Shown here piece by piece: positions 14,062 to 37,393 of a DNA stretch of 37,759 nt. Below the pieces are notes generated by a model. The model was not told the origin of the DNA and searched no databases. It saw only the letters and a list, made by a program, of their open reading frames with translations. How positions within the stretch are numbered: the stretch's first letter is position 1; every line of letters starts with the position of its first letter. The position numbers and the translations under genes are program-made. The DNA comes from Microcaldota archaeon (GTDB lineage: Archaea > Micrarchaeota > Micrarchaeia > Micrarchaeales > CABMGC01), in NCBI GenBank assembly GCA_021802765.1, contig JAJZRI010000007.1:1-37759 (forward strand), in the 5' to 3' direction.

Positions 14062-16488
14062 TTAGAGCTTGAGATTGGAGAGGTTGTAGGAGTCTATTAG
14101 CTTTAGGTTCCCGTATGCTATTGCCATCTTTATTATCTCCGCATTCTTGCCATATGCCCGATAGAGCTTGTCCAGGAATGTGAGCCTTGCCTCCTCATCT
14201 AGGAAGACCAGGAACGCCTTTGTCTTCTGGTTTATCTCGATGTCCCTTACCTTCATGTCGGAAGAGTAAATCTTTACGTAGTTCTGAGTGCCCTTGTTTG
14301 TGACTATGACATCGGTCCTGCTTGATGCGCCAAGCTCGGTCATTAGCATGGCATTGGATATGCAATAATCTTTGAGCTTGCGGTATATCGTGAGATATTC
14401 CATGCTGTATCCGGACTCCTTTATCCACTTGGTCGGCGCATAGTAGTCATCCGCCATCTTTACTATGTCCTTCTCGACCAGGTAGTTAAGTATGGAGTAG
14501 GTATTTCTGAGAGTTATGGTCATTCTCGTATTCCCATACTTTATGTTGTTGCTTATGCCTGACTTGAGCTCCTCGGCCGTCAGAGGCATGTAATGCCACC
14601 TATAAAGGGCATTGACCTTATCGAATACCAAGACCATAGAGTCTGAAGATTCCTTTGCATGCTCCAGTTTTGCAGGTTTTATGTCAGGCACGTCTATGTA
14701 GTAGTCGTCCACATTCGGAGGCACTAGCACCTTGTTAAGTATTATTATGACTATCGCAGCAACTATGAATGCGACGTATAGGGGAGGCACGTTTATTGCG
14801 GTTGTTGAAGGATAGTTATATGGGACCGAGTAGTTCTCGCCCATCACCTCCACTGAGAAGGTGCCGTTGCCATGGCTTATGTAGGTATCCTTGGGGAGCG
14901 CGTATCTAAAGGCGCCGTTCTGTATTACACCGTTTACAGGATAGGCGCCGTTTATGCTGGCAGTGTACGCAACGCCGCTCACAGGATGGCCGTTGCTGGA
15001 TGCCAAGAATGAGAAGGTGGCGTTTGGGAAATCAAAATTGCTCTGCGTTATGCTGGAGTTGCTCACATAGAACAGCGCTGACGAATATATCAGGCCCTTC
15101 TGGTCGCTTAGCCTTGCCACATAGTATCCGCTTGGCAGGAAGAACTGCGGGAATTCATACACTGCCTGCTGGCCAGTCTGCCCCATGTATATCGGATTGC
15201 TCTGAGCGCTTGATAGGTTGCTTGAAAGGACTAGTACAAAGGTGGAGACCGTAGCGTTCTGTGACTGATTGAATACCTGAGCGCCAATTGTTAGTGGCTG
15301 TGAAAGTCCGACGACTGCAGGCATGCTAAGCAGTCCGTTCTGCCGCAGGCTGTACCTGAATGGCAGCTCGAGGTCCCTAAAGCCCGAAGGGTTCGACAGG
15401 TTGAGCATGAGCAGCGCATAGGAGCTGTTTATCTCATCAGATACAGATGGATAGTACTTTATTGCAGTGCTTGTGGTGAAGAGAGTAGTAGTTCCGGAAG
15501 GCGCGCCGGGTATACTCACAGTGCCGGTCGCCAACGGGGTCATCCAGAATCGCGACTTGAGTGCCTTTGCTATGTCTAAGGCCAGGTTTTCTACGCTGTT
15601 GTTCCATCCGACTGACGGATAATTTGAGAATAGGACAAGTGTGCCATTTAGTATCGGCGTTGCATACACATGTCCAAGGCTGCTACCGGACTTGAGGGCA
15701 AAGGTAGGCGTGCTGAAGAAGAAGATGCTGTTGGAGGAGCTTGATGCGGTGAAGTTTGAGTATGGGAGCAGGGCGGAATATTCCTGGACAGTGTTCTGCA
15801 TTGCCTGGCCGCTGCAGGATACGGATCTTGAGAAGTTCCTCCCTACATAGATCACCGTATCACCGTTGCCGAGTAGGGTCATTATTGAGATGTTCTCGTA
15901 GTTTGTGCACTTCTCATTATAAGTGGAATTGGGCAGGAGGATGTTTGGTATGAGACCGGATGGGATTATGACTGTAGAATTATGGGGTATTGTTGAGAGC
16001 TTGTTTATATCAACATAGTTGAGGCTAGAGCTTCCAAGGTATAGGCCATATCTATGCATTGATGCATTGAGCGCTACGAAGAGGCTAGAGCCTATGAAGC
16101 ATTGAACGCAGTAGCCCTCAAGGTTTACCAGGTATACGGGCTCAGATGGATTTGACGGATATATCGCAACGGTGAGGTTTGACGAGGATGAGTTTGACTG
16201 CGAGTAGCCCACCTTTGCGTAACCTACAAGGTAGTTTGAGTTGTTGTATGTGAGCATGCCGTACTGGGATATTGAAAGGCTACCGGATATGGGTCCTGTA
16301 GGGGTGGCGTTTACTGTAGGAAGGGACCGTATCTGGCCCTGCACATAAAGCACAATGCCACCGACTATCAGAAGCAGCACTATTGCAACAATTATTATTG
16401 TATTTACAACGGACCGGGACTTCTTTATCGGTTTTATTCCAGAGTCGTTGCGCCATGCAGACCCTGTGAAATCTTTTCCATCAGCCAT
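14062..16488 (-). CDS. Large membrane-anchored surface protein of the T4SS-like cluster
   Basis: 808 aa from the ATG at 16488 (an in-frame TTG just upstream is possible). A basic cytoplasmic start (KPIKKSRSV) leads to a membrane helix at about 30-52. Next comes an external region of about 530 residues, rich in Ser, Thr, Asn and Tyr with some 20 N-x-S/T sites and paired cysteines (YCVQC). A second helix (about 590-612) and a cytoplasmic tail of about 190 residues follow. The tail has a winged-helix-like stretch (ILNYLVEKDIVKMADDYYAP). The long extracellular part suggests a contact, adhesion or scaffold role. It is the last gene of the minus-strand operon that starts at 21284. No family recognised. 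Confidence 0.75.
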   Translation of the reverse strand: MADGKDFTGSAWRNDSGIKPIKKSRSVVNTIIIVAIVLLLIVGGIVLYVQGQIRSLPTVNATPTGPISGSLSISQYGMLTYNNSNYLVGYAKVGYSQSNSSSSNLTVAIYPSNPSEPVYLVNLEGYCVQCFIGSSLFVALNASMHRYGLYLGSSSLNYVDINKLSTIPHNSTVIIPSGLIPNILLPNSTYNEKCTNYENISIMTLLGNGDTVIYVGRNFSRSVSCSGQAMQNTVQEYSALLPYSNFTASSSSNSIFFFSTPTFALKSGSSLGHVYATPILNGTLVLFSNYPSVGWNNSVENLALDIAKALKSRFWMTPLATGTVSIPGAPSGTTTLFTTSTAIKYYPSVSDEINSSYALLMLNLSNPSGFRDLELPFRYSLRQNGLLSMPAVVGLSQPLTIGAQVFNQSQNATVSTFVLVLSSNLSSAQSNPIYMGQTGQQAVYEFPQFFLPSGYYVARLSDQKGLIYSSALFYVSNSSITQSNFDFPNATFSFLASSNGHPVSGVAYTASINGAYPVNGVIQNGAFRYALPKDTYISHGNGTFSVEVMGENYSVPYNYPSTTAINVPPLYVAFIVAAIVIIILNKVLVPPNVDDYYIDVPDIKPAKLEHAKESSDSMVLVFDKVNALYRWHYMPLTAEELKSGISNNIKYGNTRMTITLRNTYSILNYLVEKDIVKMADDYYAPTKWIKESGYSMEYLTIYRKLKDYCISNAMLMTELGASSRTDVIVTNKGTQNYVKIYSSDMKVRDIEINQKTKAFLVFLDEEARLTFLDKLYRAYGKNAEIIKMAIAYGNLKLIDSYNLSNLKL

Positions 16489-16498
16489 CAAACTTCAC

Positions 16499-16657
16499 TT
16501 AGTTGGAATCGATCGGCTTCTCCTTAAGCAGATACTTCTTTATCAGTGAGTCGACGAACCTTGAGAACTTGTTGGACTCGTCCTTGAGCGGCTTCTTTAT
16601 TATGCAGACCTTTACGTTGCTCACGGTCCTGTTTATGTTCACATAGTACACTGCCAT
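16499..16657 (-). CDS. 52-aa small basic protein in the T4SS-like operon
   Basis: The ATG at 16657 begins MAVYYVNINRTVSNVKVC and the frame closes at a TAA after 52 codons. It is hydrophilic and lysine-rich (IIKKPLKDES, SLIKKYLLKEK). It fits exactly between the upstream coiled-coil gene (9-nt gap) and the 809-aa gene (10-nt gap), and codon use is like its neighbours, which argues that it is real. No transmembrane segment or known motif; function unknown. Confidence 0.65.
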   Translation of the reverse strand: MAVYYVNINRTVSNVKVCIIKKPLKDESNKFSRFVDSLIKKYLLKEKPIDSN

Positions 16658-16666
16658 TACTATCAC

Positions 16667-17422
16667 TTAGCTCTTCAACTCAATATAACCCAGCGAGACC
16701 ATCTTATCGAGTATCTGCTCCACCCGGGTTGGTGAGAGATTGTGGTCCTTTGAGAATGCAATCACGTCTATTGAACTGTTGTGCACGGTGATCCATTCCT
16801 CCACAAGCGCCATGAGCGACTCGTCGCTGTATTTTTGGAGCGCGCCTAACTGCTCCCTAATCACTTTATTCTCTTCGACCAGTTGCGCTGATTGGAGGGT
16901 AAGGTTCCGGTTGGACGCAGATATCTCTATGTTTATCCTCTTCTGCTCCCTGTAATCTGTAAGGAGTGAATCGTACTTGTTGTAAAGGGAGGTGTAGGTC
17001 TGCGAGAGCCCAGATACAAGGCCTTCGAGTATCGAATCCACATACTGTATGAACTTCACCTGGTTTATGGTATACCTGTCCGAAACCATTGACAGGACTG
17101 AGGACATCTCCTTTAGGACCTCGGCCCTCCTGAGATTGAGGCTTGTGTCGGGTATGAGAGAGTAGGTGAGCGTTAGGCTGTCGGCCTTGAGTTTTATGAC
17201 GTGAAATAGGTATGGCTTCTTGCTTATGTTCCTGCTCTCCACCTTTGCGAGGGTAAGCTCGGTGGGCTCGAACTGCACAGAATAGAAGGGCAGCTTGCCC
17301 AGAGTATCGCGGATGTCATCAAGCGTTCCTGTTAGCTTTGCATCTATGGTGAATTCCTCGACTTTAGGCTGGAGCGCGGCCTGGTCGTTTTGAGGTTGGG
17401 CATCTGGCAACTGAACCACCAT
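16667..17422 (-). CDS. Coiled-coil protein with C-terminal winged helix
   Basis: 251 aa, soluble. Residues about 20-110 look like a beta-rich domain (EFTIDAKLTGTLDDI, SVQFEPTELTLAKV, DSLTLTYSLIPD). Residues about 135-200 form a coiled coil (LLTDYREQKRINIEI, QLVEENKVIREQLG). Residues about 205-250 form a winged helix (VIAFSKDHNLSPTRVEQIL, MVSLGYIEL). It lies inside the T4SS-like operon between a two-helix membrane protein and the 52-aa gene. The winged helix may serve protein contacts rather than transcription. Compare the 387-aa protein at 34693, which has the reverse order. Confidence 0.7.
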   Translation of the reverse strand: MVVQLPDAQPQNDQAALQPKVEEFTIDAKLTGTLDDIRDTLGKLPFYSVQFEPTELTLAKVESRNISKKPYLFHVIKLKADSLTLTYSLIPDTSLNLRRAEVLKEMSSVLSMVSDRYTINQVKFIQYVDSILEGLVSGLSQTYTSLYNKYDSLLTDYREQKRINIEISASNRNLTLQSAQLVEENKVIREQLGALQKYSDESLMALVEEWITVHNSSIDVIAFSKDHNLSPTRVEQILDKMVSLGYIELKS

Positions 17423-17444: not shown

Positions 17445-17816
17445 TTATTGTTTATGCTTAATTTTAGCCGTTTTTTTCTGGTCAGTCGCAAGCCCAGGCG
17501 TGTAATTGACCAGGGATATCAGGTAAAGCGCCGCGATGACCAGGACGGAGAGGAGAATTGTATTGATGCTGATTGAGATTATCAGGCCAAGTATGGCGAA
17601 TATGACACCCAGGGCCACATAGAGGTTCTTCCTAGATGTGAAGCGGTCCCTCTTCTTCTTGTACTCCTCCATGTCCTCGCTGCATACGACAAGGTCGTTG
17701 CCCTGCAAGCTATGCGTCACGTTGCCCTTGAACCACCTTAGGGACTGGAGCACGCGGTCATCCCTGATCGCAATTCCATTCTTCCTCTTTCCACACATTA
17801 TGCAATAAGTCGGCAT
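17445..17816 (-). CDS. Small zinc-ribbon-like protein with two membrane helices
   Basis: 123 aa. The N-terminus has a CIMCGKRKNG half-ribbon and a further Cys in VVCSEDMEEY, so four-ligand zinc binding is uncertain. Two adjacent hydrophobic helices lie at about 66-84 and 88-106, and the tail is lysine-rich (KKTAKIKHKQ), so both ends should be cytoplasmic. The start ATG follows the stop of the upstream gene directly, indicating translational coupling. Probably an accessory of the secretion-like complex; no family recognised. Confidence 0.7.
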   Translation of the reverse strand: MPTYCIMCGKRKNGIAIRDDRVLQSLRWFKGNVTHSLQGNDLVVCSEDMEEYKKKRDRFTSRKNLYVALGVIFAILGLIISISINTILLSVLVIAALYLISLVNYTPGLATDQKKTAKIKHKQ

Positions 17817-18125
17817 TCATTCAACCTTTAGCTCGACGAGCTTCCCGAACGTGTTCTTTATCTTCTCCTCCTCAAGCACGTCGAATATATTTGATATCGT
17901 GACATCGTCTATGCCGGCGCGCCTGAATAGGTTGACTACATCGTTGTGCTTGAGCCCGGCATTCTGGAGCATTCCAGTGAACATTATGACATTGACGTGC
18001 CGGTGCATGCGGTCCAGCTGCGCGAGTATGGAATCGGTGTTCTTGTCGCTGACCTTGAAGCTGGAGAGTATTCTCTTGAGCTCTATCTTGCTTATCGTAA
18101 AAGTTCCTCCCATATCATTCACCAT
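17817..18125 (-). CDS. Small helical protein coupled to the VirB4-like ATPase
   Basis: 102 aa, soluble and mostly helical: IELKRILSSFKVS, SILAQLDRMHRHV, FTGMLQNAGLKHNDVVNLF, VTISNIFDVLEEEKI. The start overlaps the end of the VirB4-like gene by 11 nt, and the stop is directly followed by the next ATG, so it is tightly coupled to both. A second ATG four codons on is an alternative start. The repeated two-helix look could be an adaptor to the ATPase; this is inference. No known motif. Confidence 0.7.
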   Translation of the reverse strand: MVNDMGGTFTISKIELKRILSSFKVSDKNTDSILAQLDRMHRHVNVIMFTGMLQNAGLKHNDVVNLFRRAGIDDVTISNIFDVLEEEKIKNTFGKLVELKVE

Positions 18126-19620
18126 AGCTAAATGCCCGGGTTATCAGCTGGTCGGATATCCCACTGCCCCTTAAGAAGGATACAACGAGCTCCCTTTGCA
18201 GCTTCTGGCCCAGCATCATCCTAACGAATTCCTTAAGGTCGACGAGCCTGTTCTTTGAGTCGAGCTCATTCATTATGCCGTCTATCGCGTCGGTGTTCGC
18301 CTCGCTCTCTATCAGCTTAGACCTAAGGAACGGCTTCTCGAATGAGTACTCCTTCTGTATCGACTGATCCCTGAGCTCGGTCTCTGTAAGCAGGTCGGCC
18401 AGCGTTATGGTATAGACGTCAAGAGGCACCTCTCCCACCACCCTGTTTATTATGAAGGTTGACGGGAATTGCTGAGAGGTCTGGAAAGACATATCTATGG
18501 CTGCCTGACCCACGCCAAGCTTGCTTATCTCTCCCCTTATGAACTGCGAGAAGTTAAGCGACCCCTGTAGGTAGTCCATGAACTTCTGGAATTTTATCTT
18601 CAGTATCACGTTGGTGCCGACATTTGAGAAGATTGCCTCGTTTATGTCCGTAGGGTTCTGGGAGGCCACTATTAGTCCGAACTGGTACTTCCTACCCTCC
18701 CTTATTATTGTTATGGCGTCGCTGCGCTCGTCGCTTGCCACCTTCCATGCCTCGTCGAGCACTATTATTGCCTTTAGGCCCTTGGCCGCGCTCCAGCCCG
18801 CGAGCCTCATCTTCTCCTTGAGCGTCTGGAGTATGAAGAGTGCCGCAAGAGCCCTGAACTTCTCATCGGGCAGGCCTGAGAGGTCTATGGCTACCAGCCC
18901 CGAGCTTATTATCTTGTCAAGGTCTATGGTGCTCTTCTGGGCAAAGTAATCCTCGCCCTCGCGCGAGAACTGCCTGAGCCTGTAAATCGCATTCTCAAGC
19001 TCCGCCGGATACTGGTAAGTGCCCTCCTGTAGCTTCTCCTCCAGAAGGCCGACGACATCCTTGAGTGTGGGAGCGTCCCTGTCCCCTACAGGAACGCTTG
19101 CCATTATGAATCCTGCATTGAGATAGGACTGCTCTATTGCCTCCGAAGTAAGCCTCTTCTGCTCTGGGAAGTTTGATATGTCAGTAAGTATGTCAAGGGA
19201 GTTCATTATCTGCTTGACCCTGTCTATCGGCTTTGCGCCTGCAAGATCCATAAGGTTGAGGTAATCGCCCTTTCCGAATGAGACTATCGTACCTCCGCTC
19301 TGCTTCACCCATCCCTTGTACTCCCCAGCCCAGTCGATTATTATGGCGTTCGTGCCCCAGACGTAGCTTGCGCGTATGAGGAAGGTCTTTACGAAGAAAC
19401 TCTTTCCCGACCCAGTTATGCCCACAACTGAGAGGTGGGGGTTTGTGAGCGTGTTGAATGTCCAAGTGAATGGCACGCCGAATCTACGGGTTATGCCTAT
19501 GAATATCGAATCTGTGGGGTCGTTTAGCAGGAGCTCGTACGGAGGCTCCGGGGGCCTTGTTATGAAGGTCCTCTTTGCGAGCTCATTTCCCATTATTTTT
19601 TGTATCTTTATAAGGCTCAT
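18115..19620 (-). CDS. VirB4/HerA-type ATPase, stand-alone motor domain
   Basis: 501 aa from the ATG at 19620 (a TTG 10 codons upstream overlaps the previous gene and is less likely). Walker A is GITGSGKS (67-74). IIIDWAGEY follows at about 93-101. Walker B is AIIVLDEAWK (284-293), with REGRKYQFGLIVASQNP after it (307-323), which is the hallmark order of VirB4/TrbE and HerA-like pumping ATPases. The family hexamerises at the inner membrane face and drives DNA or protein transfer. The usual VirB4 N-terminal domain of about 200 residues is missing; two upstream genes look like separate versions of it. In Sulfolobales the comparable motor is CedB. Confidence 0.88.
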   Translation of the reverse strand: MSLIKIQKIMGNELAKRTFITRPPEPPYELLLNDPTDSIFIGITRRFGVPFTWTFNTLTNPHLSVVGITGSGKSFFVKTFLIRASYVWGTNAIIIDWAGEYKGWVKQSGGTIVSFGKGDYLNLMDLAGAKPIDRVKQIMNSLDILTDISNFPEQKRLTSEAIEQSYLNAGFIMASVPVGDRDAPTLKDVVGLLEEKLQEGTYQYPAELENAIYRLRQFSREGEDYFAQKSTIDLDKIISSGLVAIDLSGLPDEKFRALAALFILQTLKEKMRLAGWSAAKGLKAIIVLDEAWKVASDERSDAITIIREGRKYQFGLIVASQNPTDINEAIFSNVGTNVILKIKFQKFMDYLQGSLNFSQFIRGEISKLGVGQAAIDMSFQTSQQFPSTFIINRVVGEVPLDVYTITLADLLTETELRDQSIQKEYSFEKPFLRSKLIESEANTDAIDGIMNELDSKNRLVDLKEFVRMMLGQKLQRELVVSFLRGSGISDQLITRAFSYGE

Positions 19621-19624
19621 GTCA

Positions 19625-20446
19625 TCAGTTTTGCGTATTGAAGATTGCAAACATCTCCTTCTCGTCGGGTATGATGTAATTGAAGCTGAAGAGCGAGTAG
19701 ACCTCCCTGCCCGTGACCCTGATCAGGCTCAGGTCGAATACGTTGAATACGGTCTGGAGCTCGCTGAGCTGGTTTGTAAGGGCATCCTGGGCGTCCTTTA
19801 GGCTTACCCCGACCGCAGTCGACTCCAGGTACATTATGCTGTTGACAGGCTTCTCACCTTCGCCTATCTTGTCTATCCTTGTCTGTATCACGTTTATCTC
19901 CCTTTGCATGTTCTCAAGGCCCATAGGGTTTGGGTTTGTAGACTGCATCTCCTTTGAGTATTGGAACTCGAGGAGGCCCCTTTTTGTCTCCAATTCGTCG
20001 CGGTACTTCTGTATGTCCTCTGATGCCGCTATTAGGTTGAACTTGAACGGGAACTTTAGGTTCATTATGGCCTTTTCCCATTTTTCTGGAGCAGCAACAA
20101 GCTCAGGGCGGTCATCGATAGATCGCTCTGCGGTGAATATGTAGTTGTACACGTTAGCAGTGAGGTATCCGGTTGCATAGTATATGCCGTTTGAGTACTT
20201 TATGACCGAATCCTGACTGCTTGTTATCGTGAAGTTCTTTGCAGGGGTTATGGTTATTCCTAGCAGCCGCGTAATTACCGGCACGAGCAGGAAGTCTGCA
20301 AATGCGAGAAGAAGTATCAATATCACAGTAAGGCCGGCTAACATGTCTATTATTATGCCGAAGATCCCGAACCTTGAAGAAGCTGTGAACACCAGTATTG
20401 CCACAAGAATGGATGCCGCAATGGAGATTATAGTTGTTTCATCCAT
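19625..20446 (-). CDS. Two-helix membrane protein resembling VirB3 plus VirB4 N-terminal domain (copy 2)
   Basis: 273 aa. Membrane helices lie at about 5-27 and 31-58, as in VirB3/PrgI-type subunits. A cytoplasmic domain follows: NGIYYATGYLTANVYNY, LKFPFKFNLIAASEDIQKYRD, a coiled coil at about 140-215, then DLSLIRVTGREVY and YIIPDEKEMF. Strand-helix order and the terminal 'G.E..........P' pattern resemble the VirB4 N-terminal domain. It ends 4 nt before the motor gene, which lacks that domain, and copy 1 lies immediately upstream. The VirB3/VirB4-N reading is inference from pattern and context; a profile search would test it. Confidence 0.6.
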   Translation of the reverse strand: MDETTIISIAASILVAILVFTASSRFGIFGIIIDMLAGLTVILILLLAFADFLLVPVITRLLGITITPAKNFTITSSQDSVIKYSNGIYYATGYLTANVYNYIFTAERSIDDRPELVAAPEKWEKAIMNLKFPFKFNLIAASEDIQKYRDELETKRGLLEFQYSKEMQSTNPNPMGLENMQREINVIQTRIDKIGEGEKPVNSIMYLESTAVGVSLKDAQDALTNQLSELQTVFNVFDLSLIRVTGREVYSLFSFNYIIPDEKEMFAIFNTQN

Positions 20447-20450
20447 TTAA

Positions 20451-21284
20451 TCACGACGCTGGAGAGGTCTTGTATTTCATTACCTCTGATATCGTTGCTG
20501 GCGGTATCATCCTGTCAGGCTCTATGAATATCAGTATCTCGTTTCCGGTTATCATTGACGCGGCAACTCCAAGGGTAGTGCTTATTCCTGCTGCGATCTC
20601 CTCGGCCTTTATGGTGACCAAGTTCACGGCCTCATCCTCAGAGTTTCCTGACGCAGATATGCTGGCATAGACTTCAAGCTGCTGCGAGTTGCTCCTGGAT
20701 ACATTGTCAAGAAGGTTGCGCCACATCGTCACCTCTCCCTTAACCCTGTCCAGAGCCTTCGGATCCGCGTTCTTGTCTACCTGAAGCGTGTTGTATCTCC
20801 CTTCCGATTCGCTTAGCTTTGCATTGATCCTTGCGATGTAATCATCCTTGTTTATCGAATGGAGCTGCGAGGAAAGCCTCATTGGCGTCTTGCTTATGCT
20901 CACAAGCCTTGCAAAGAGCGTCGCAAAGTTGTACTTCTGGTCGTCGTCCATCTCGGTCGCGGTGCTGTATATCGGGATCTTCACAAAGGATGTGGCGAAG
21001 ATATCGTTGTTGCGCCTCACAACTATGGCACTGCCGCTAGGGGTCATGTAATATGGCTCGTTCTCATCGACCACTATGTTCATGTGCTTCATCTTTGTTA
21101 TCGGCTCGAAGAGAAAGAGGTAGTCCTTTGTGGCAAATGCAATCATCCCAGAAAGTAGCGCCATTATGGCAACTATGAGGGCCAGCGGCGCAAAGCCTGA
21201 GGGTATGAAGCTCATTATCACAACACAGACTATCCCGACACCTACAGCTATGGCGAAAACGAGCATCTGGCTTTGACTATTCAA
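20451..21284 (-). CDS. Two-helix membrane protein resembling VirB3 plus VirB4 N-terminal domain (copy 1)
   Basis: 277 aa from a TTG at 21284; the ATG at 21266 (MLVFAIAV) is the alternative. Helices lie at about 9-27 and 32-52. Then come a strand-rich region (HMNIVVDENEPYYMT, AIVVRRNNDIFATSFVKIPIYS), helices (NFATLFARLVSISKTPMRL), a coiled coil, and ASMITGNEILIFIEPDRMIPP. The layout matches the next gene (19625-20446) although sequence identity is low, so they are probably ancient paralogues. It heads the operon that continues through the VirB4-like motor to the 809-aa protein. Two TATA-like elements lie just upstream. Confidence 0.6.
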   Translation of the reverse strand: MNSQSQMLVFAIAVGVGIVCVVIMSFIPSGFAPLALIVAIMALLSGMIAFATKDYLFLFEPITKMKHMNIVVDENEPYYMTPSGSAIVVRRNNDIFATSFVKIPIYSTATEMDDDQKYNFATLFARLVSISKTPMRLSSQLHSINKDDYIARINAKLSESEGRYNTLQVDKNADPKALDRVKGEVTMWRNLLDNVSRSNSQQLEVYASISASGNSEDEAVNLVTIKAEEIAAGISTTLGVAASMITGNEILIFIEPDRMIPPATISEVMKYKTSPAS

Positions 21285-27238: not shown

Positions 27239-27247
27239 GATTACCAC

Positions 27248-30119: not shown

Positions 30120-30123
30120 GATA

Positions 30124-31401
30124 TCAGCTCGCAAGCCTTAGCTTTCCTCCAAGCGACAGGCGTATTGTGCCACCTAGCGACCTTGCTATGCTGTCAACCA
30201 GTGGATACATTATTATCAAGTCTATCACGAAGAGCAGCATCTGTATTATCAGGTATACTCCGAAGAGGAGTATCCTGTTCATATAGGTGTAGATGGCATT
30301 TGTCTGGAATACGACAAGGGCATCCCATATCGATCCTGCAATGTTAGCGGCAAGCTGGCTTATGCCACCTACGTTTAAGGTATTGCATATCAGACTGGAG
30401 CCCCATGAGGTAAATACGCTAAAGAAGCTGTTGCAGGAGTTCTGACCAAATGCATATAGCGGTGGCTGCGTCTGCACTATTGGGATAGCACTGGCCATCA
30501 TGTTGGTCGCTATGGAATTGAACAATATAAACGTTGCAGGAAGTACAAGGCAAAGAGCAATGCCTATGGCTATAAGCGTTCCGCCAATTCCCCTTATGAA
30601 AGGAAGTGCCCTGAAGATAAGGCCCATTGGTATGAAGAAGTTCAGGCCGATGTATGCGAACGACGGAAGCGTCGTTATAAGGCCTATCACCAGTGACGAG
30701 AATGGGAAGAGAATGAAGTTGACCATGTCGTTTATTATCGAGCCATACCATGCAATCATGAAGTTTCCTGTCTGCAGCAGCCAGTTCGCGAATGGCAGGA
30801 ACATTACGCCATCATATATTGCAAAGAAGGGGCCGATCGGTATTGGAACGTAAAAACCCATCTGAAATGTCGACCAGAAGCCTGTCCCTCCAGACATTAT
30901 GCCCATGCTCTCCCATGCATACGCCATCTGGGTGTTGACATTGCAGAGGTAGTTCTCCGCGCCCATTATTAGGGGCGCGAGGTTTATCCCGCCTCCTGGC
31001 TGAGCCACGCTTCCGGCACCACCAAGAGGGGAGGATATAGTGTATGCTATGTTTCCTACAATTATCATTGCAGAATATATGACCACTATGATTAGGGCGC
31101 TCTTCATTATCTCCCAGTACTCGCCCTGCACCCAGCTTCGCAGCCCGGCATTTGTGAATATCCGACTTAGAAGAAATGCTATCGCAACAACGTCAAATGA
31201 TACTGTGAGCGCAATGAGGGCAAGCCCGAGCTCCTTTCCTGTAGAGGAAAAGATGCCCGAGAGCAACTGTGGATTTGAGCAGAATTGAGGAACAACCAGC
31301 CCTGAACCACCCACAGGCACGGATTGCGCATATGGCGCATTGAAAAATAGTGACAGCACAACTAGTAGCAATGCAGGGAGACTGGCCGACTTTATTCGCA
31401 T
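30124..31401 (-). CDS. VirB6/TrbL-like polytopic membrane protein, paralogue 1
   Basis: 425 aa, the first gene of the six-member array. A signal peptide (LLLVVLSLFFNAPYAQS) is followed by an external Cys (PQFCSNPQ). The TM-loop-TM unit holds NAGLRSWVQGEYWEIMKS (84-101). The signature is FRALPFIRGIGG (263-274), leading to LIAIGIALCLVLP. About six to eight helices in total. The C-terminus is LGGTIRLSLGGKLRLAS. A TATA box about 34 nt upstream marks the array promoter. The repeated R(S/A)xPFxRxxGG motif across six adjacent genes is the main argument that they are paralogues. Confidence 0.72.
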   Translation of the reverse strand: MRIKSASLPALLLVVLSLFFNAPYAQSVPVGGSGLVVPQFCSNPQLLSGIFSSTGKELGLALIALTVSFDVVAIAFLLSRIFTNAGLRSWVQGEYWEIMKSALIIVVIYSAMIIVGNIAYTISSPLGGAGSVAQPGGGINLAPLIMGAENYLCNVNTQMAYAWESMGIMSGGTGFWSTFQMGFYVPIPIGPFFAIYDGVMFLPFANWLLQTGNFMIAWYGSIINDMVNFILFPFSSLVIGLITTLPSFAYIGLNFFIPMGLIFRALPFIRGIGGTLIAIGIALCLVLPATFILFNSIATNMMASAIPIVQTQPPLYAFGQNSCNSFFSVFTSWGSSLICNTLNVGGISQLAANIAGSIWDALVVFQTNAIYTYMNRILLFGVYLIIQMLLFVIDLIIMYPLVDSIARSLGGTIRLSLGGKLRLAS

Positions 31402-31445: not shown

Positions 31446-32201
31446 TCAGTGCCTTAGAAGCCTGAAGGTGTCCATGTAGGCCTCCGCCTGGAATATTACG
31501 AAATAAGGAACGATGAGCAGCGAATTGAGTATCAGGACGATATATTTTGACAGGACAGTGCCGAAGAGCGCTATGCAGACAACATCAAGGGCAGAGATTA
31601 TGACAGTTATCAGGACAAGCCACATCACAAAGTACTGCGGTTCCTTGAAGAGTAGCCTTATGCTGTCCTTGACCGCCCTCCCGATTCTCTTGTCGTCCAT
31701 CACAATGGCGCTTGGCGCATAGAAGAGAAGTGCGAAGAGCACAAAACCCACAAGGCCGGTAAGCAGTGCGGAGAGGCCGACAAAGTATCCAAGTATGTTC
31801 ACTATGACTATGGCTGCAGTGTACATCAGAAATATCAAGAAGACCTTGCCGATGTAGGACTCTATGTTCTTCATCGCCATTATGCCTATCTTCGAGTGCG
31901 TCCTCTTGGACTTCACGAGCATGCTTATCAGCACGAACGCAAAGCTGAGAAAGAGGAGCGAGAATATTGTTGATATAGTTATGACTATGAGGCTAAGCTG
32001 GCTTATGCTCCCGTTCACGAAGATGCTTGCGCTCCTTAGGAATATGGCGCCTGCAGTAAGATATGTTGGGAGGGATGCGAGCATTGGTATTGCGAACGCT
32101 ATTATGAATGGTATTGAGAATAGAAGGATGAGGCTTATCTTCTCCCTGTACAACTCGTACGATTCCTCAAGCACTCCAGCCAATATCACACCGATAATCA
32201 T
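31446..32201 (-). CDS. Polytopic membrane protein, about six helices
   Basis: 251 aa. Hydrophobic helices lie at about 25-48, 65-95, 118-140, 142-165, 192-215 and 218-240. A conserved-looking cytoplasmic loop, MDDKRIGRAVKDSIRLLFKEP, before the fifth helix is typical of a broad class of archaeal/bacterial membrane proteins with a central 'A.kdS..l' motif (DUF975-like look). It does not carry the VirB6-like array signature. It follows the glycosyltransferase-like gene by 35 nt, so it is probably in the pilin operon. Function unknown. Confidence 0.65.
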   Translation of the reverse strand: MIIGVILAGVLEESYELYREKISLILLFSIPFIIAFAIPMLASLPTYLTAGAIFLRSASIFVNGSISQLSLIVITISTIFSLLFLSFAFVLISMLVKSKRTHSKIGIMAMKNIESYIGKVFLIFLMYTAAIVIVNILGYFVGLSALLTGLVGFVLFALLFYAPSAIVMDDKRIGRAVKDSIRLLFKEPQYFVMWLVLITVIISALDVVCIALFGTVLSKYIVLILNSLLIVPYFVIFQAEAYMDTFRLLRH

Positions 32202-32236: not shown

Positions 32237-34108
32237 CTAGCCATACCTTATTGCAGGAGCCTGATAGTAGTACTGACTATTGGAGAGTATCATGGAGAGA
32301 TATGCGGGGCGGGGGATATTTGAAGGAAGAATTGCCGTAAGATTATATGTTCCTGAACCATTTAGATGCACGATATTTACATTCACAGCGCAGGGGAAGG
32401 CGCATCTGTGGCTGCCTGAGAGTATGCTGCTATTAAACAGGCCGTAATACCTGCCGCTACCGTTTGAATTTGCCTCCATAATTAGATATAGATTTGCAGC
32501 TGCACCCTTATTGTAGTGGATAACTGCCCCGTATGCAAGATGAGTGGAGTTGATATAGCTGATTCCGATTCCGGTCGCACTCAGGTTGAGGGTGCTTTCA
32601 TATGAACGATGAGATTGCAAGATTATCAAAACCATTGCAAGCAGGATGGCACTTATAGAAAGCAGGTATGCAATCTTCAAATTCCTGTCCTTGGAGATGG
32701 TGCTGGAGAGTAAATTCTTCATTGTATCTTTTGACACTGGATCCGCTACAAGGGCAAGCACTGCTACTGGAAGTATGTAGTAGATCTGCGTCGCATGCCC
32801 AAGAAACAGGAACGGGATAGCGCTGAGCAGGGGGAGCAGCTGCCTGTTGTTTACATAGAGAGATATCAAAAGCACCAATGCCATCGATGCTGCGAATAAG
32901 TAGTTGAATGCGCTAAGCAATACGCCTATATGCACCGCAATTGCATAGCCTATCGGAGAGAGCGAGTTGGGCAGAATTGTGCCAGTGACTGCAAGGAAAT
33001 TGCCCGCATATCCTGAAGGATCGGTTAAAATGAAGTACCCATTAAATACCATAAAGACAGCGAATGTCAGGGCGAGATTCCTTACTCCTGCCTTCTTGCC
33101 ATGCACATTGAAGGAATAGGCTATGAAGAGAAGCGCCATAAACCATAGCTGCTCCTGAAGCGAAACGGCAATGCCGAGGATTAGCCATTCGTACTTGTCA
33201 GCCGCAGTAGAATACAGCATTATCACAACAGCCAGCATAAGTATTATTATCATCGACGGCATGTAGATGCTAAAAAGCCCAAGCGCTATGTAAAATGCGT
33301 AATTGGGCTGCGCATACCTCTTTTTGCCCTCGAAAATTACATACGACATTAGTAGGATCAGGGTGAATACAAATCCTTCGGTGTGCATGAAATTTCCGGA
33401 AAGCTGCTGCGGTGGCTGCCTTATGAGCACATAAAATGGAATCTGGATAAGGAAGTATAAGGAGGGATAATCCATCAGCCCCATTATTGTGCCATTGGTA
33501 CTTGCAGTAAATCCGATACGGGAATGCTGGAGCAGGACGTATATCTGCTGCGCAATATTTATGGAGTACGGATTCGTTCCGGCGGCAAGCGCCTTTATGC
33601 CGTAATAGCTTAGGAGCACTTCATCGTCTACCATATAACTTGTGGTGCTTGGAATGAAATAGAGTACCAATAATAGCACGACTACTATGGATATTATAGA
33701 TCTCACTCGCCAGTCCTTGATGTAGAAGAAGATCTGTATTATGGCAAATATGAGCAGGAATATGACTAGATAGGCAACAAGGTATTCGAGCTCAGAAAAA
33801 TCATGCATCGACAGTTGGCCAAGACCAATGTGCAACCAGGTACCTGCAACAAACAGCAATAAGGACAGCATGAAGAGGATTGATGAAGCGATGGAAAAGG
33901 ACTCTGACCGACCAGAAAGGCCATATGATATAACATAGAGAGCGGCGACTGCTGAAAACGCAACATCTATTGCCGTTCCCTTTGCAGAGTATACGGAAGT
34001 GTTGTAGCTGACAGTTATTATGAAAAGAATAAATGAAAGGATAAGAAGTCTTGAGTCATTGCCCAAAAGCAGCAGAGACCCTTTGTCTCTGCCTTTTTGG
34101 TAGTGCAC
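32237..34108 (-). CDS. GT-C-type membrane glycosyltransferase-like protein
   Basis: 623 aa from a GTG at 34108, 7 nt after the pilin stop. About 12-13 membrane helices are followed by an external C-terminal domain of about 120 residues with several N-x-S/T sites. After the fourth or fifth helix the first loop has MVDDEVLLSYYGIKALAAGTNPY and then MDYPSLYFLI, resembling the acidic-pair loop and the 'G.nPY...YPPl' pattern of GT-C lipid-linked sugar transferases (GT87/PMT-like). Such an enzyme would glycosylate exported proteins. Coupling to the pilin gene suggests that the pilin or its partners are substrates. The fold is inferred; no match was computed. Confidence 0.6.
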   Translation of the reverse strand: MHYQKGRDKGSLLLLGNDSRLLILSFILFIITVSYNTSVYSAKGTAIDVAFSAVAALYVISYGLSGRSESFSIASSILFMLSLLLFVAGTWLHIGLGQLSMHDFSELEYLVAYLVIFLLIFAIIQIFFYIKDWRVRSIISIVVVLLLVLYFIPSTTSYMVDDEVLLSYYGIKALAAGTNPYSINIAQQIYVLLQHSRIGFTASTNGTIMGLMDYPSLYFLIQIPFYVLIRQPPQQLSGNFMHTEGFVFTLILLMSYVIFEGKKRYAQPNYAFYIALGLFSIYMPSMIIILMLAVVIMLYSTAADKYEWLILGIAVSLQEQLWFMALLFIAYSFNVHGKKAGVRNLALTFAVFMVFNGYFILTDPSGYAGNFLAVTGTILPNSLSPIGYAIAVHIGVLLSAFNYLFAASMALVLLISLYVNNRQLLPLLSAIPFLFLGHATQIYYILPVAVLALVADPVSKDTMKNLLSSTISKDRNLKIAYLLSISAILLAMVLIILQSHRSYESTLNLSATGIGISYINSTHLAYGAVIHYNKGAAANLYLIMEANSNGSGRYYGLFNSSILSGSHRCAFPCAVNVNIVHLNGSGTYNLTAILPSNIPRPAYLSMILSNSQYYYQAPAIRYG

Positions 34109-34115: not shown

Positions 34116-34469
34116 TCAGCAGGAAACTCCGGTTCCCAGGTTTCCTGCAGTGTATATCATGGAAATCAGGTGAGGCGCAATTATCACGATTATGAGGCCC
34201 ACTATTCCTCCGACTATCATTCCTAGGGACCAACCCTGTAGGTTTCCCTTAAGGTTGCCTGCTGCAGGAAGCATGTGAGCCACTGCATAGAATGCTCCTC
34301 CGAGTATGAATAGTGCAAGTGCTATTATTCCTACGACAGCCTGTATGCTCTTTATTATGCCGCACAGGCTGGAGCTTATCACTGAAGATGCCGACTGGGC
34401 AGCTACTAGTGGAGCCACCAGTCCGACCAAGGACAGGGCCAACAGGACGTATCTATTTATTGTTGTCAT
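34116..34469 (-). CDS. VirB2/TrbC-like pilin
   Basis: 117 aa. A signal peptide (YVLLALSLVGLVAPLVAA) is likely cut before Gln25. The mature part of about 93 residues has two hydrophobic helices (about 39-65 and 80-105) around a short polar loop (PAAGNLKGNLQG), the standard VirB2/TrbC/CedA1 layout. The SIQAVVGIIALALFILGG and GMIVGGIVGLIIVIIAP segments resemble T4SS pilins. Two cysteines (Cys36 and the C-terminal Cys117) could pair. In T4SS this protein forms the conjugative filament. It has a good TATA box and is divergent from the coiled-coil/ATPase genes. It is not a class III (type IV) pilin. Confidence 0.75.
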   Translation of the reverse strand: MTTINRYVLLALSLVGLVAPLVAAQSASSVISSSLCGIIKSIQAVVGIIALALFILGGAFYAVAHMLPAAGNLKGNLQGWSLGMIVGGIVGLIIVIIAPHLISMIYTAGNLGTGVSC

Positions 34470-34506
34470 TTACATCAACATTTTGTGAGAATATAGGACA
34501 TTATCT

Positions 34507-34516: not shown

Positions 34517-34529
34517 TCTTTCGGGAAAA

Positions 34530-34596: not shown

Positions 34597-34653
34597 CGCA
34601 TTTAGCGCATGGAAAAACTTGCAGCCGCCAGGCAGATATTAAATTAGTTAATA

Positions 34654-34660
34654 TTATAAG
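34654..34660 (+). promoter_or_regulatory. TATA box of the coiled-coil/ATPase operon
   Basis: TTATAAG is centred 36 nt upstream of the ATG at 34693, with a leader of about 10 nt. CTTAAAG (34661-34667) directly after it is an alternative that would give a leaderless start. Confidence 0.5.
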
Positions 34661-34692
34661 CTTAAAGATTTAATTATGGGTTTGCTGATGGG

Positions 34693-35856
34693 ATGGCCGA
34701 CCAGGAGATTAAGACAGGGATTGATGCCCTTGTCACCTATCTAAACGAGCATGGAGAGACCAATATCTCGGTAATAGCCACAGCACTGGGCGTCGGGGAG
34801 GCTGCGGTTCTTGAATGGGCGAACGTCCTCGAGAAGGCCAATCTTATACTAATCAGCCACAGGTCCGGAAGGCTCTTCCTAGCGCCCATGACCGGAGCGG
34901 CTAAGGCGAGCAGAGAGACGGCCCAGGCAAAGCAGTCCTCGGTTCAGGAACTCATATCCTCTGATCTTGCTGCAGTTGACCAGATATCGCTTGACCTTGA
35001 CGAGTTCATGAAGTCCATAGGAAGGATAGATGACATATTCAACACCAAGTACAAGAATGCCAAGGTAATGCTCGACAAGCTAAATGGCATAGACGCAAAT
35101 ATGGCAAAGATCGAAAAGGACATAACGGACAGGTCGAATTACATCAAGACGGTGTCCGAGAAGTCTAAGGAACAGGTGGCTACTGCAAGGGGCCATCTCT
35201 CTGTACTGCTTGGATTCTCGCTTGACACCAACAACGCCAAGGCCGTGTCGCAGGAGCTGCGTGACCTGCTCAAGGCATATGAAAGGAATATCTCGGATCT
35301 GAACAAGGCGCTTGACCAGACAATCTACCAGTATAGGAAGAACGCGCTCACGCTATCAAAGAGCATAAAGGAGAAGCATGAGCAGCTTGTCGAGGTGCTG
35401 AGCTTCGACGAGAAGCAGATAAGGGAGTACGAAAGGATTGGTGAGGATTACAAGAGGGAGCAGGCCCGGTTGCAAAGACAGATGGACAGCATAAGCAAGA
35501 AGACGCTAGACGAAATAGAAGCCGGGAAGGCGGAGATGGCAAGGCAGATAGAACTTTCAAAGGTGCAGATGAACGCCATAAGGCCCAAGATAGACGACAT
35601 AAAGAAGGATCTTGGGCAGCTTGCAGAGCTCAACTCCCAGATAGCCTCGCTTAGGACAGGCATAGACGAGCTGGTAAAGCAGAGGGAAGGAATCCTTCCG
35701 GAACTAAGAAAGCTCCAGCAGGACGTCAAAACAGGGGATAACATGGAGGCAGTGGAGGAGAGGGCAAACAAGGTGTCTGATAGGATAAATGAGGTTAAGG
35801 GAAAGGTGGAAATCATAAGGAAGAATTTTGAGGGTATGGGAAAGAAAGATAAGTGA
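34693..35856 (+). CDS. Winged-helix protein with long coiled coil
   Basis: 387 aa, soluble. Residues about 8-65 form a winged helix (DALVTYLNEHGETNISVIA, LEKANLILISHRSGRLFLAP). The rest (about 95-385) is almost continuous heptad-rich coiled coil (ERIGEDYKREQARLQRQM, LSKVQMNAIRPKIDDIKKDL), broken near 165-185. It ends 7 nt before the ATPase gene. Coiled-coil partners of secretion ATPases are common in archaeal pilus and archaellum systems, so it may link the ATPase to the membrane complex. It could also be a regulator. The reverse arrangement (coil then winged helix) occurs at 16667 and 11153. Confidence 0.75.
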   Translation: MADQEIKTGIDALVTYLNEHGETNISVIATALGVGEAAVLEWANVLEKANLILISHRSGRLFLAPMTGAAKASRETAQAKQSSVQELISSDLAAVDQISLDLDEFMKSIGRIDDIFNTKYKNAKVMLDKLNGIDANMAKIEKDITDRSNYIKTVSEKSKEQVATARGHLSVLLGFSLDTNNAKAVSQELRDLLKAYERNISDLNKALDQTIYQYRKNALTLSKSIKEKHEQLVEVLSFDEKQIREYERIGEDYKREQARLQRQMDSISKKTLDEIEAGKAEMARQIELSKVQMNAIRPKIDDIKKDLGQLAELNSQIASLRTGIDELVKQREGILPELRKLQQDVKTGDNMEAVEERANKVSDRINEVKGKVEIIRKNFEGMGKKDK

Positions 35857-35863
35857 TGCTTTT

Positions 35864-37393
35864 ATGGTTGATGATGAAGTAAAGAACAGCAGTGGCAAGG
35901 AAGAAGCCGACAGGGAGATGGCTAGCTATGACCTCAATGCCAACGGGATACTTGCCCGCGTAAGGATAATGGACCGCGGAGGCATAGTGCCGTCATACGA
36001 GGTCACGGTTCCTGGACTTGGGGAAGCCACAAAGATACTCATAGCATCGCTTAGGCAGGAGCTGCTGCGTCTTGTTCCGATAGACACCAGCAAGATAGGC
36101 GACCAGGAGTACGTAAAGGAGCTCAACAAGAAGTACACTGACGCAGCGGCAGTTGTCATAGAGAGATATCTCCCTGGAACGGCACGGGAGGTCAAGGCAA
36201 TATTAATAGCCTACATAATCAACCTCATGCTCGGCCTGGGGGACATGGAGGTGCTTCTTTCCGATGACAACCTGGAAGAGATTGCAGTGAACTCGGCAAA
36301 GGACGGAGTATGGGTCTTCCATAAGGTCTATAGCTGGTGCAGGACCAACATAAAGATATACAGCGACGAGGACATCTACGACCGTTCTGACCAGATAGGA
36401 CGTAGGGTTGGCAGGCAGATATCGACGCTTACCCCGCTCATGGACGCAGAGCTTGGAGATGGATCCAGAGTCAACGCAACGCTCTACCCGATATCGCAGC
36501 GGGGAAACACGATAACAATAAGAAAATTCTCCAAGAATCCATGGACCATGCCGGCGCTCATGGAGAGGAACACAGTGTCTCCCGAGATAGCCGCGATAAT
36601 ATGGCTGTGCATGCAGAATGAGATCAGCGTGCTCATATCCGGAGGTACGGCAAGCGGAAAAACTAGCTTCCTCAATGCGATGAGCATATTCATGCCCTCG
36701 AACCACAGGGTGATATCCATTGAAGAGACCAGGGAGCTCACGCTTCCAAACTTCCTGCAGTGGGTGCCTATGCTTACAAGGCAGGCCAACGCTGAAGGCA
36801 AGGGAGAGATAAGCCTTTACAATCTCATGATAAACGCCCTGAGACAAAGGCCGGACATAATACTAGTGGGAGAGATAAGAACCAAATGGGATGCCCAGAC
36901 GCTCTTCGAGGCAATACATACGGGTCATGCCGTCTACGGCACCATACACGCGGACAATGTGCAGGATACCATAATAAGGATGACAAATCCGCCGATAGAT
37001 CTGCCCAAGATAATGCTTAATTCTCTGGGCGGGGTGATTTCCCTTTTCAGACATAGGCGTCTTGGGATAAGGCGAGTGCTGGAGTTCGGAGAGATAACCA
37101 ACAGCGGCGACGCCAACGTGCTAAACAGGTGGAACATGAGAAGCGACACGTTCGCGAAGATATCGAACATGACAAGGCTTGCAGAGATGATAGCGCTTTA
37201 CGGAGGCTACACCTACAATGAGATACTGGAGGACGTGGCCGAGAAAGGCAGCATTTTGCAGTGGATGGTAAACAACAAGATAACTGATGTAGACAGAGCT
37301 GGAGGCGTCGTAGCAAAGTACTATAAGGACAAAGACGCAGTAGTCAAGATAATCAATGACAAGGTTCCGTATTCGGACGACCTGTTCAAATGA
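35864..37393 (+). CDS. Type II/IV secretion ATPase (VirB11/PilB/GspE superfamily)
   Basis: 509 aa from the ATG at 35864; an upstream in-frame TTG overlaps the previous gene and is less likely. The N-terminal domain has YEVTVPGLGEATKILI. The RecA-like core shows Walker A GGTASGKT (260-267), Asp box VISIEETREL (283-292), Walker B DIILVGEIR (331-339) and His box HTGHAVYGTIHAD (352-364). These ATPases power pilus assembly or substrate transfer. Context beside the VirB2-like pilin and VirB4-like genes favours a VirB11 role, but size and N-terminal domain also fit archaeal type IV pilus ATPases that could serve the LamG pilins. The next gene overlaps the stop (ATGA). Confidence 0.93.
   Translation: MVDDEVKNSSGKEEADREMASYDLNANGILARVRIMDRGGIVPSYEVTVPGLGEATKILIASLRQELLRLVPIDTSKIGDQEYVKELNKKYTDAAAVVIERYLPGTAREVKAILIAYIINLMLGLGDMEVLLSDDNLEEIAVNSAKDGVWVFHKVYSWCRTNIKIYSDEDIYDRSDQIGRRVGRQISTLTPLMDAELGDGSRVNATLYPISQRGNTITIRKFSKNPWTMPALMERNTVSPEIAAIIWLCMQNEISVLISGGTASGKTSFLNAMSIFMPSNHRVISIEETRELTLPNFLQWVPMLTRQANAEGKGEISLYNLMINALRQRPDIILVGEIRTKWDAQTLFEAIHTGHAVYGTIHADNVQDTIIRMTNPPIDLPKIMLNSLGGVISLFRHRRLGIRRVLEFGEITNSGDANVLNRWNMRSDTFAKISNMTRLAEMIALYGGYTYNEILEDVAEKGSILQWMVNNKITDVDRAGGVVAKYYKDKDAVVKIINDKVPYSDDLFK

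Follow-up and report, generated by a model that had tools for sequence, protein, structure and literature searches.

We identified a gene block that probably encodes a chromosomal, vertically kept (domesticated), relaxase-less envelope machine derived from the T4SS/conjugation family, a judgement that leaves the substrate of the machine aside. The block occupies positions 14062–34469, on the minus strand, of the 37,759-nt stretch of Micrarchaeota DNA that we analyzed (hereafter, the window). It comprises a VirB2/TrbC-like pilin, six tandem VirB6-like genes, two VirB4-N-like paralogues, a VirB4/HerA ATPase, and conserved new partners, and the machine is Ced/Ted-like in its parts, with a split VirB4. 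A first-pass annotation of this DNA had proposed that the Micrarchaeon carries in its chromosome a machine related to T4SS and Ced and lacking a relaxase; the parts, the conserved gene order, and the absence of the relaxase family PF03432 support that proposal. In the literature searched, we found no account of a six-VirB6 system.

Organization of the gene block

The genes are ordered from 34469 down to 14062 and are as tightly packed as previously described, most gaps being <80 bp and several genes overlapping; the final gap, ahead of the gene for an 809-aa protein, is 176 bp. The neighbours (CDC48, S6e, eIF2-gamma, KH, and Top6B) confirmed a chromosomal site beside core genes. The cluster had originally been drawn at 14062–37393. 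Its part at 14062–34469 stood, and the plus-strand pair at 34693–37393 proved to be a separate, neighbouring type IV pilus operon.

Several genes of the block encode proteins outside the recognizable T4SS components. An accessory membrane protein of 623 aa with 12–13 transmembrane (TM) segments (32237–34108), found mostly in the window's own family, showed no match in a Pfam search, and its topology alone suggests a glycosyltransferase-like protein. It is followed by a conserved membrane protein of 251 aa with 6–7 TM segments and no known family (31446–32201). The large bitopic protein of 809 aa encoded by the last gene of the block (14062–16491) consists of an N-terminal TM segment, an outside region of ~520 aa, a second TM segment, and an inside domain of ~220 aa. 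A conserved soluble protein of 251 aa (16667–17422) comprises an N-domain, a coiled coil, and a C-terminus that is a probable winged helix. Pfam and PDB searches with the 809-aa protein and the two 251-aa proteins returned nothing usable. The adjacent conserved small protein of 123 aa (17445–17816) has two TM segments and Cys pairs that may be zinc-ribbon-like. A membrane-anchored, strongly basic long tail protein of 806 aa (net +53; 21360–23780) lies between the sixth VirB6-like gene and the VirB4-N genes in only part of the window's family, and was dropped as a candidate universal part.

A VirB4 motor divided between separate proteins

The ATPase (511 aa; 18115–19650, with a start near 19620 by alignment) is of the VirB4/HerA type and lacks the VirB4 N-terminal domain. 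Its Walker A and DEAW motifs were invariant, and it matched DUF87 (4e-14) and TraG_P-loop (2e-13) in Pfam and HerA and VirB4 (4ag5) in the PDB. The best NCBIfam matches were CedD, CedB, and TraC, the last aligned at positions 412–737 of 800, which is its C-terminal half. These matches bear out the VirB4/HerA motor with intact Walker motifs of the first-pass annotation. The scores against the CedD and CedB models were 77 and 68 bits, far below the curated cut-offs of 600 and 700, and the ATPase scored HerA about as well as VirB4, the matches covering the ATPase core. A small protein of 102 aa (17817–18125) is a free-standing relative of the C-terminal ~90 residues of the ATPase, with positions 17871–18110 matching positions 422–501 of the ATPase model (E = 3.5e-11).

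Two proteins encoded next to the ATPase, each with a two-TM N-terminus, resemble the VirB4 N-terminal domain: B3y (273 aa; 19625–20446), the universal partner of the ATPase, and its paralogue B3x (277 aa; 20451–21284), the two aligning in hhalign at 99.8% (E = 3e-28). Structural prediction of B3y by AF2 (pLDDT 80) followed by a Foldseek search showed that R388 T4SS entries with TrwK/VirB4 accounted for 10 of the 11 best PDB matches (probability up to 1.00, E-values of at least 0.013); a PDB profile search with B3y gave no significant match, so that the likeness appears only via the predicted fold. The VirB3 profile matched neither B3x nor B3y, and their two-TM part may be VirB3-like by topology. 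On this evidence, a VirB4-family ATPase with its N-terminal domain, as in a T4SS, is present in substance, with the domain on a separate protein rather than in one chain. The VirB4-N-like pair (19625–21284), which carries much of the T4SS evidence, had been overlooked in the first-pass annotation, as had the split of VirB4 and the conservation of the six VirB6-like genes as a sextet.

The pilin and the VirB6-like sextet

The first gene of the block encodes a pilin of 117 aa (34116–34469) with a signal peptide, two hydrophobic helices, and a short basic loop; almost every complete cluster has its pilin gene in this position. The window's pilin matched Pfam TrbC with E = 0.0014; across the pilin family, TrbC matched 11 of 27 members (best 9.7e-8) and T4SS_pilin (PF18895) 6 of 27 (best 9.3e-7). 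The best match in a PDB profile search was TrwL, the R388 pilin (E = 0.0049). These data agree with the two-helix VirB2-like pilin recognized earlier and establish, at the level of sequence, that a VirB2-like pilin is present.

Six polytopic proteins with 6–7 TM segments follow the 251-aa membrane protein. From position 1 to position 6 these are B6f (425 aa, 7 TM; 30124–31401), B6e (416 aa; 28884–30134), B6d (543 aa; 27248–28879), B6c (404 aa; 26033–27247), B6b (373 aa; 24915–26036), and B6a (360 aa, 7 TM; 23824–24906), which is the best conserved of the six. Comparison by hhalign identified them as mutual paralogues (98–99.9%); the six membrane proteins noted earlier are real, their VirB6 label being a separate matter. 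None matched the Pfam VirB6 profile, and a PDB profile search with B6a gave no significant match. The AF2 model of B6a, the sole member with a predicted structure (pLDDT 84), weakly resembled VirB6 in Foldseek (7o3v_J, rank 4, E = 0.27, probability 0.60). We tentatively assigned VirB6 identity to the six because of their topology, their neighbourhood, and their relationship to the pilin: the pilin aligned with the first two TM segments of B6e (hhalign, 69%, E = 4.6e-5), and a general VirB6-like model also matched pilins. This pilin–VirB6 homology parallels the reported homology of CedA1/CedA and VirB2/VirB6 (PMC9905601).

The number of VirB6-like genes was exactly six in 64 of 67 complete clusters, the three exceptions having artefactual explanations, and 13 further sextet loci also contained six members each. 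In a first tree, each paralogue was monophyletic with full support within the window's taxonomic order, and positions 1, 2, 3, 5, and 6 of another family stood beside their counterparts with strong to moderate support. A second, larger tree including nine of the 13 further loci sorted members largely by position; its branches were long, and for the window's order positions 3, 4, and 6 joined their counterparts uncleanly, so that orthology by position appears well supported there only for positions 1, 2, and 5. The whole sextet was duplicated in several families, usually along with the motor, and five of the six genomes with two sextets encoded two full-length ATPases. Sequence comparison shows the six to be old paralogues kept in one order.

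Conservation and distribution in Micrarchaeota

Scattering of these genes among related genomes had been named as an outcome that would refute the proposed machine. Gene order was instead near-invariant across ~90 related loci, including that of the cultured Ca. Micrarchaeum A_DKE, at ~807–824 kb of NZ_CP060530; it was kept across the window's taxonomic order, where the cluster lies beside top6B in most cases, and was recognizable in other families. Relatives were searched within the order, and one scan of genome contigs returned Micrarchaeota or records titled Marsarchaeota. The 809-aa protein was present in 106 of 116 Micrarchaeota genomes. It and the VirB6-like genes were absent from the same nine genomes, in which the ATPase orthologue was also absent or weakly matched. 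Genomes without the machine may be incomplete, though nine high-completeness ones agree.

A compact second locus, with the composition pilin–VirB6–VirB4N–VirB4–HTH and one VirB6-like gene, is present in the window's genome and also in A_DKE. This Ced-like locus had also escaped the first-pass annotation. The soluble 251-aa HTH protein of the block has a relative there (hhalign, 86%, E = 5e-6).

Comparison with known systems

The machine shares with Ced of Sulfolobales and Ted of Thermoproteales a chromosomal location, the lack of a relaxase, and the combination of a VirB2-like pilin, a VirB6-like protein, and a VirB4/HerA-like ATPase, and the ATPase scores best against the CedD and CedB models. 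In contrast, Ced/Ted have one or two VirB6-like proteins rather than six, and their ATPases include an N-terminal domain in the same chain, CedB and CedD covering different parts of the VirB4 N-domain (PMC9905601, PMC11868833), whereas in Micrarchaeota this domain is a separate two-TM protein encoded as two paralogues. The Micrarchaeota block is further distinguished by some eight additional conserved genes, and CedA/CedA1 gave no match. The compact second locus is the closer Ced counterpart.

In the solved R388 structure, VirB4 forms a hexamer of dimers whose N-domains contact VirB3, and a VirB6 platform lies beneath the pilus (PMC9259494). The predicted fold of B3y matches R388 VirB4; however, VirB6 is a homo-pentamer in R388 rather than six different paralogues, and Micrarchaeota encode the VirB4 N-domain separately from the motor. 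None of the cluster proteins matched VirB8 in Pfam, and VirB8–VirB10 were not found in the block. The rvh T4SS of Rickettsiales resembles the present system in its expanded VirB6 family, some members of which have large insertions, and in belonging to host-dependent cells; rvhB6 occurs in three to five copies (PMC10732058), compared with six in fixed order in Micrarchaeota, and four VirB6 paralogues of Ehrlichia are described as interacting in work cited in PMC12857230. The rvh system differs in being a double-membrane (Gram-negative) P-type T4SS with VirB8–VirB10 and VirD4.

Two systems of reduced or DPANN lineages bear on function. The T4SS of Patescibacteria (CPR) has VirB2-, VirB3-, and VirB6-like parts with VirB4, is chromosomal, mostly relaxase-less, and near-universal in a reduced, host-dependent phylum, and is reported to be essential for epibiotic growth (PMC12102498); VirB3–VirB4 fusions were not found in Patescibacteria, and a six-gene VirB6 sextet is not reported for them. 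The nanohaloarchaeal SPEARE/giant Ig-repeat proteins are likewise DPANN surface machinery with large outside regions and a VirB4-like ATPase domain (PMC10266531), but are single giant fusion proteins, in contrast to the many-gene cluster with a pilin and VirB6-like sextet described here. Both parallels favour a T4SS-derived secretion or attachment apparatus that exports proteins into, or fuses with, a host archaeon, serving symbiosis rather than DNA traffic, as do the near-universal occurrence of the machine in a phylum described as host-dependent and the big outside region of its large bitopic protein. We consider this explanation rather unlikely, albeit the strongest of the alternatives: no effector candidates were identified, and among curated models the motor best matches CedD and CedB, which are DNA-import ATPases.

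Alternative explanations of the gene block

The comparable scores of the ATPase against HerA and VirB4, together with the weak Foldseek support for VirB6, would also fit a HerA-type DNA-repair motor encoded beside a separate, unrelated transporter. We regard this as improbable, given that all parts are co-conserved, that a VirB4-N domain and a VirB2-like pilin are among them, and that no NurA gene was identified in the block or among the window genes scanned.

T4SS parts and the distant similarity of the motor to TraC of conjugative plasmids could indicate the transfer module of an integrated conjugative element or its remnant. The first-pass annotation had seen no relaxase in the window, and this held at the genome level: PF03432, the one relaxase family searched, was absent from the window's own genome (81% complete) and from six complete or nearly complete relatives. 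Archaeal elements have been reported to lack known relaxases (PMC9905601). The coupling protein family PF02534 reached 13.5 bits in the window's own genome (81% complete), which is below the cut-off. The nearest plasmid matches shared 24–28% identity, and no relatives of the cluster were found in the viral contigs searched, nor close relatives in plasmids or phages. With its fixed place beside top6B and near-universal, vertical retention, the cluster is very unlikely to be a mobile element, an explanation that its conserved location already largely refutes and that we rejected.

A VirB11/PilB ATPase had been counted as part of the machine. The gene concerned (35828–37393, plus strand) scores best as FlaI/TadA, above VirB11, and begins the neighbouring pilus operon, in which two TadC/FlaJ-like genes follow it in two close relatives; it was present in 116 of 116 genomes, usually far from the cluster, and only certain close relatives have it near the block. 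We ruled out VirB11 as a part on these grounds, and no VirB11 ATPase is encoded with the system. The occurrence of this ATPase and of LamG pilins on either side of the block might suggest a type IV pilus or archaellum-like adhesion system with the membrane proteins as its platform, which is scarcely credible, being already contradicted by the non-conserved linkage of an ATPase with its own operon and TadC-like platform genes, by the lack of a Pfam T2SSF match in the six membrane proteins, and by a cluster pilin that is VirB2-like, not class III.

Proposed mechanism and biological implications

For the T4SS-derived envelope machine, we propose that the ATPase would form a hexamer docked by B3x and B3y, as VirB4-N/VirB3-like proteins, beneath a membrane channel. 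The VirB6-like channel is probably hetero-oligomeric and would be built from six different subunits, probably one of each; alternatively, the six may be co-expressed yet form separate homomers. Pilins would assemble on the channel, forming a short pilus or conduit. The large bitopic protein of 809 aa would couple the outside to the motor side. With neither a relaxase of the family searched nor a recognized coupling protein, the machine would move macromolecules between the Micrarchaeon and a cell in contact with it. A Ced/Ted-like role in DNA import or exchange may be the likeliest, a choice that we make tentatively, and protein export to, or uptake from, a host would come next, as a doubtful possibility. 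It is also possible, though we would not presume it, that the machine represents a distinct, Micrarchaeota-specific class of T4SS-derived systems, in which an obligate VirB6-like hetero-hexamer matches the six-fold VirB4 motor and the N-domain is split off into two specialized paralogues, which might correspond to the inner VirB4 and the outer VirB4 of R388; such a machine would serve as the main conduit to host or neighbouring cells.

For the contact and exchange of DPANN archaea with their hosts, the present block provides a large, near-universal candidate apparatus in one DPANN phylum. The sextet yields a sharp structural prediction, namely six different VirB6-like subunits as opposed to the R388 homo-pentamer, and the machine is testable because a cultured strain, Ca. 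Micrarchaeum A_DKE, has it. Taken with Ced/Ted and the Patescibacteria T4SS, the machine would show that conjugation machinery has been domesticated repeatedly, with two cases in reduced, host-dependent lineages. Micrarchaeota are tiny archaea that probably depend on hosts, and the machine may be the channel for their exchange of material with other cells.

Gene Order and Chromosomal Surroundings

The contig (C4, 37,759 bp, entire) derives from a genome of 872 kb that is 81% complete. The first-pass annotation had proposed one T4SS/Ced-like cluster at 14062–37393. Its minus-strand genes (14062–34469) stood as such, running from the pilin gene (34469) to the gene for an 809-aa protein ending at 14062, whereas the plus-strand ATPase gene (35828–37393) fell to a separate type IV pilus operon. 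Upstream, core chromosomal genes adjoin the block, the last being top6B, convergent to it; the proposed chromosomal placement was thus retained.

The genes are ordered as pilin, (12-TM protein), 251-aa membrane protein, six VirB6-like genes (B6f-e-d-c-b-a), (basic 806-aa protein), B3x, B3y, ATPase, 102 aa, 123 aa, HTH, and 809 aa, followed by top6B. Gene order was compared in 20 regions from relatives' genomes and 80 loci from GTDB genomes, one of these loci (L100) coming from the complete genome of the cultured Ca. Micrarchaeum A_DKE. A single common order was found, and a few of the 20 regions (other families and genome G017) carried the ATPase part alone, with the sextets elsewhere. Three partners downstream of the ATPase were kept in the main loci examined in all families: a small protein with two TM segments and Cys pairs, a soluble protein of coiled-coil/HTH-like type, and the bitopic protein of 809 aa. 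Pfam and PDB searches gave no useful matches for these three.

A rearranged version, with the 809-aa and HTH genes inverted right after the sextet, occurred in loci L133, L136, and L139. Several MAGs titled 'Candidatus Marsarchaeota' (L084, L092, L103, L105, L117, and others) carried a typical Micrarchaeota cluster, with 39–50% identity in the sextet gene searched; these titles are probably wrong or from another naming.

The first ~2 kb of the window (1–2006) have a GC content of 32–34%, compared with ~49% in the remainder. The shift coincides with a tRNA-Pro gene (1932–2006), two unassigned genes lie on the low-GC side, and this end is possibly an integrated element or an assembly join. At 9060–11018, two tandem pilin-like genes with class III signals have near-identical 5' parts (90.7% over 246 bp), similar 3' parts (82% over 210 bp), and mutually unalignable LamG middles, a pattern suggesting that cassettes are exchanged or that a surface lectin is being diversified.

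The Neighbouring Type IV Pilus Operon

The ATPase at 35828–37393 had been read as a VirB11/PilB component of the cluster, an assignment that we abandoned. Its top model was FlaI (260 bits), followed by TadA and then BasE, with VirB11 below these (127 bits). In the corresponding regions of two close relatives (genomes G045 and G095), the ATPase gene precedes a ~208-aa gene and two genes named TadC/FlaJ-like from their sequence rather than by profile search; the window's contig stops short of these. The ATPase belongs to a divergent type IV pilus operon (34693–37393, continued in the relatives), which also includes an HTH/coiled-coil gene. This ATPase was found in 116 of 116 genomes, usually far from the cluster, and the operon adjoins the sextet cluster only in some members of the window's family.

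Pilin and Probable Split VirB4 Motor

The 117-aa protein consists of a signal peptide and two more hydrophobic helices, as first described. It matched Pfam TrbC (E = 0.0014); when 27 family members were scanned singly, TrbC was detected in 11 (best 9.7e-8) and T4SS_pilin in six (best 9.3e-7), and the top PDB match of the family profile was TrwL, the R388 pilin (E = 0.0049). These matches provide good sequence evidence for a VirB2-type pilin.

In the ATPase (511 aa, 18115–19650) the Walker A and DEAW motifs are invariant, and the protein matched both HerA and VirB4 in Pfam and the PDB, in line with the VirB4/HerA motor originally suggested. The best NCBIfam models were CedD, CedB, and TraC; with its alignment limited to TraC residues 412–737 of 800, the ATPase is the C-terminal half only. 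The 102-aa gene 3' of it encodes a free-standing relative of its C-terminal ~90 residues. The two genes upstream, B3x (277 aa, 20451–21284) and B3y (273 aa, 19625–20446), encode two-TM proteins that are mutual paralogues (hhalign, 99.8%). B3y was modelled with AlphaFold2 (pLDDT 80, pTM 0.61), and 10 of the first 11 PDB hits of the model in Foldseek were R388 T4SS entries that include TrwK/VirB4 (best E = 0.013, probabilities reaching 1.00). These hits make it most probable that the absent VirB4 N-terminal domain is provided in trans. CedB and CedD are reported each to span a different part of the VirB4 N-domain (PMC11868833), and R388 VirB4 is a hexamer of dimers whose N-domains touch VirB3 and VirB8 (PMC9259494, PMC12857230). 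Speculatively, B3x and B3y might be counterparts of the inner and outer VirB4 of R388.

The VirB6-Like Sextet

All six VirB6-like proteins were mutually homologous (hhalign, 98.3–99.9%), and hhalign detected no homology between them and the adjacent 251-aa membrane protein. The pilin aligned to the first two helices of B6e (hhalign, 69%, E = 4.6e-5), and the general VirB6-like model matched pilins of two other genomes (E = 2e-6 to 1e-3); the same kinship is reported to link CedA1 to CedA and VirB2 to VirB6 (PMC9905601). The predicted structure of B6a was confident (pLDDT 84), but in Foldseek R388 VirB6 ranked only fourth (E = 0.27, probability 0.60). Because of this rank, the VirB6 assignment is a putative one, drawn from several lines of evidence taken together.

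Exactly six VirB6-like ORFs were present in 64 of the 67 clusters that other genes flank at both ends; the exceptions were one cluster with split ORFs and two whose pilins also match the VirB6-like model. Within the window's order, each paralogue formed a clade with full support, and next to five of these clades stood the same-position gene of another family, with strong (96/95) to moderate support. Families with a lone ATPase core carry their VirB6-like genes elsewhere, as two separate tandem sets, and six were counted in each of the 13 additional loci inspected, of which 12 came from these families and one from G017. In a second tree including nine of these loci, members mostly sorted by their place in the set: those at positions 1, 2, and 5 grouped across everything, those at positions 3, 4, and 6 within the other families, and each position had two subclades matching the two sextet types. 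On this topology, the sextet probably had a single origin and a later block duplication. Five of six two-sextet genomes have two full-length ATPases, the exception (G005) having one. Six diverged paralogues kept in order through block duplication are most simply explained as subunits of one complex, which we infer to be a VirB6-like hetero-hexamer; R388 VirB6 is a homo-pentamer (PMC9259494).

In the two-sextet families (loci L159, L160, L155, L161, L163), some sextet members reach 600–1140 aa through large insertions, and very large proteins (1431–1867 aa) lie beside some sextets. A genome of the same genus (G066, 1.2 Mb) gave 25 VirB6-like matches on several contigs, reflecting either extra copies or a mixed bin.

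A compact locus (pilin-VirB6-VirB4N-ATPase-HTH) with a single VirB6-like gene was found in the window's own genome (contig C8, L172 6443–10366), in A_DKE (L173 6345–10236), and in a region of G020. Its parts are homologous to those of the main system (hhalign, 98–99.5%; HTH, 86%). It looks like a closer counterpart of Ced than the sextet cluster, which in turn looks like an elaborated version of it.

Distribution in the Phylum

The ATPase search matched 267 of 295 phylum genomes (E ≤ 1e-10), about 245 of them as strong matches at orthologue level; the remainder matched weakly and were HerA-like or belonged to the compact system. In a set of 116 genomes (at least 85% complete, plus the window's own at 81%, counted within the 116), VirB6-like genes were present in 107 and the 809-aa protein in 106. 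Both were absent from the same nine genomes, in which the ATPase orthologue was likewise absent or weakly matched.

Functional Implications

By analogy with Ced/Ted, DNA import or exchange would be the most parsimonious role. Host interaction rather than DNA traffic comes close behind, given the precedents set by the T4SS of Patescibacteria (PMC12102498) and by giant VirB4-like surface proteins of nanohaloarchaea (PMC10266531). A self-transfer element is unlikely, as the first-pass annotation had supposed from the lack of a visible relaxase: relaxase PF03432 was found neither in the window's own genome nor in six relatives whose genomes are complete or nearly so, no coupling protein scored above cut-off in the own genome, and no close relatives were found on plasmids, phages, or viral contigs.

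A literature search, mostly without subscription journals, found no description of a T4SS-like system in Micrarchaeota. Rickettsiales are known to carry three to five paralogues of VirB6 (PMC10732058), compared with six here. The T4SS ancestry of the system is clear, and to our knowledge its split motor and six-paralogue membrane part are new, being unreported elsewhere.
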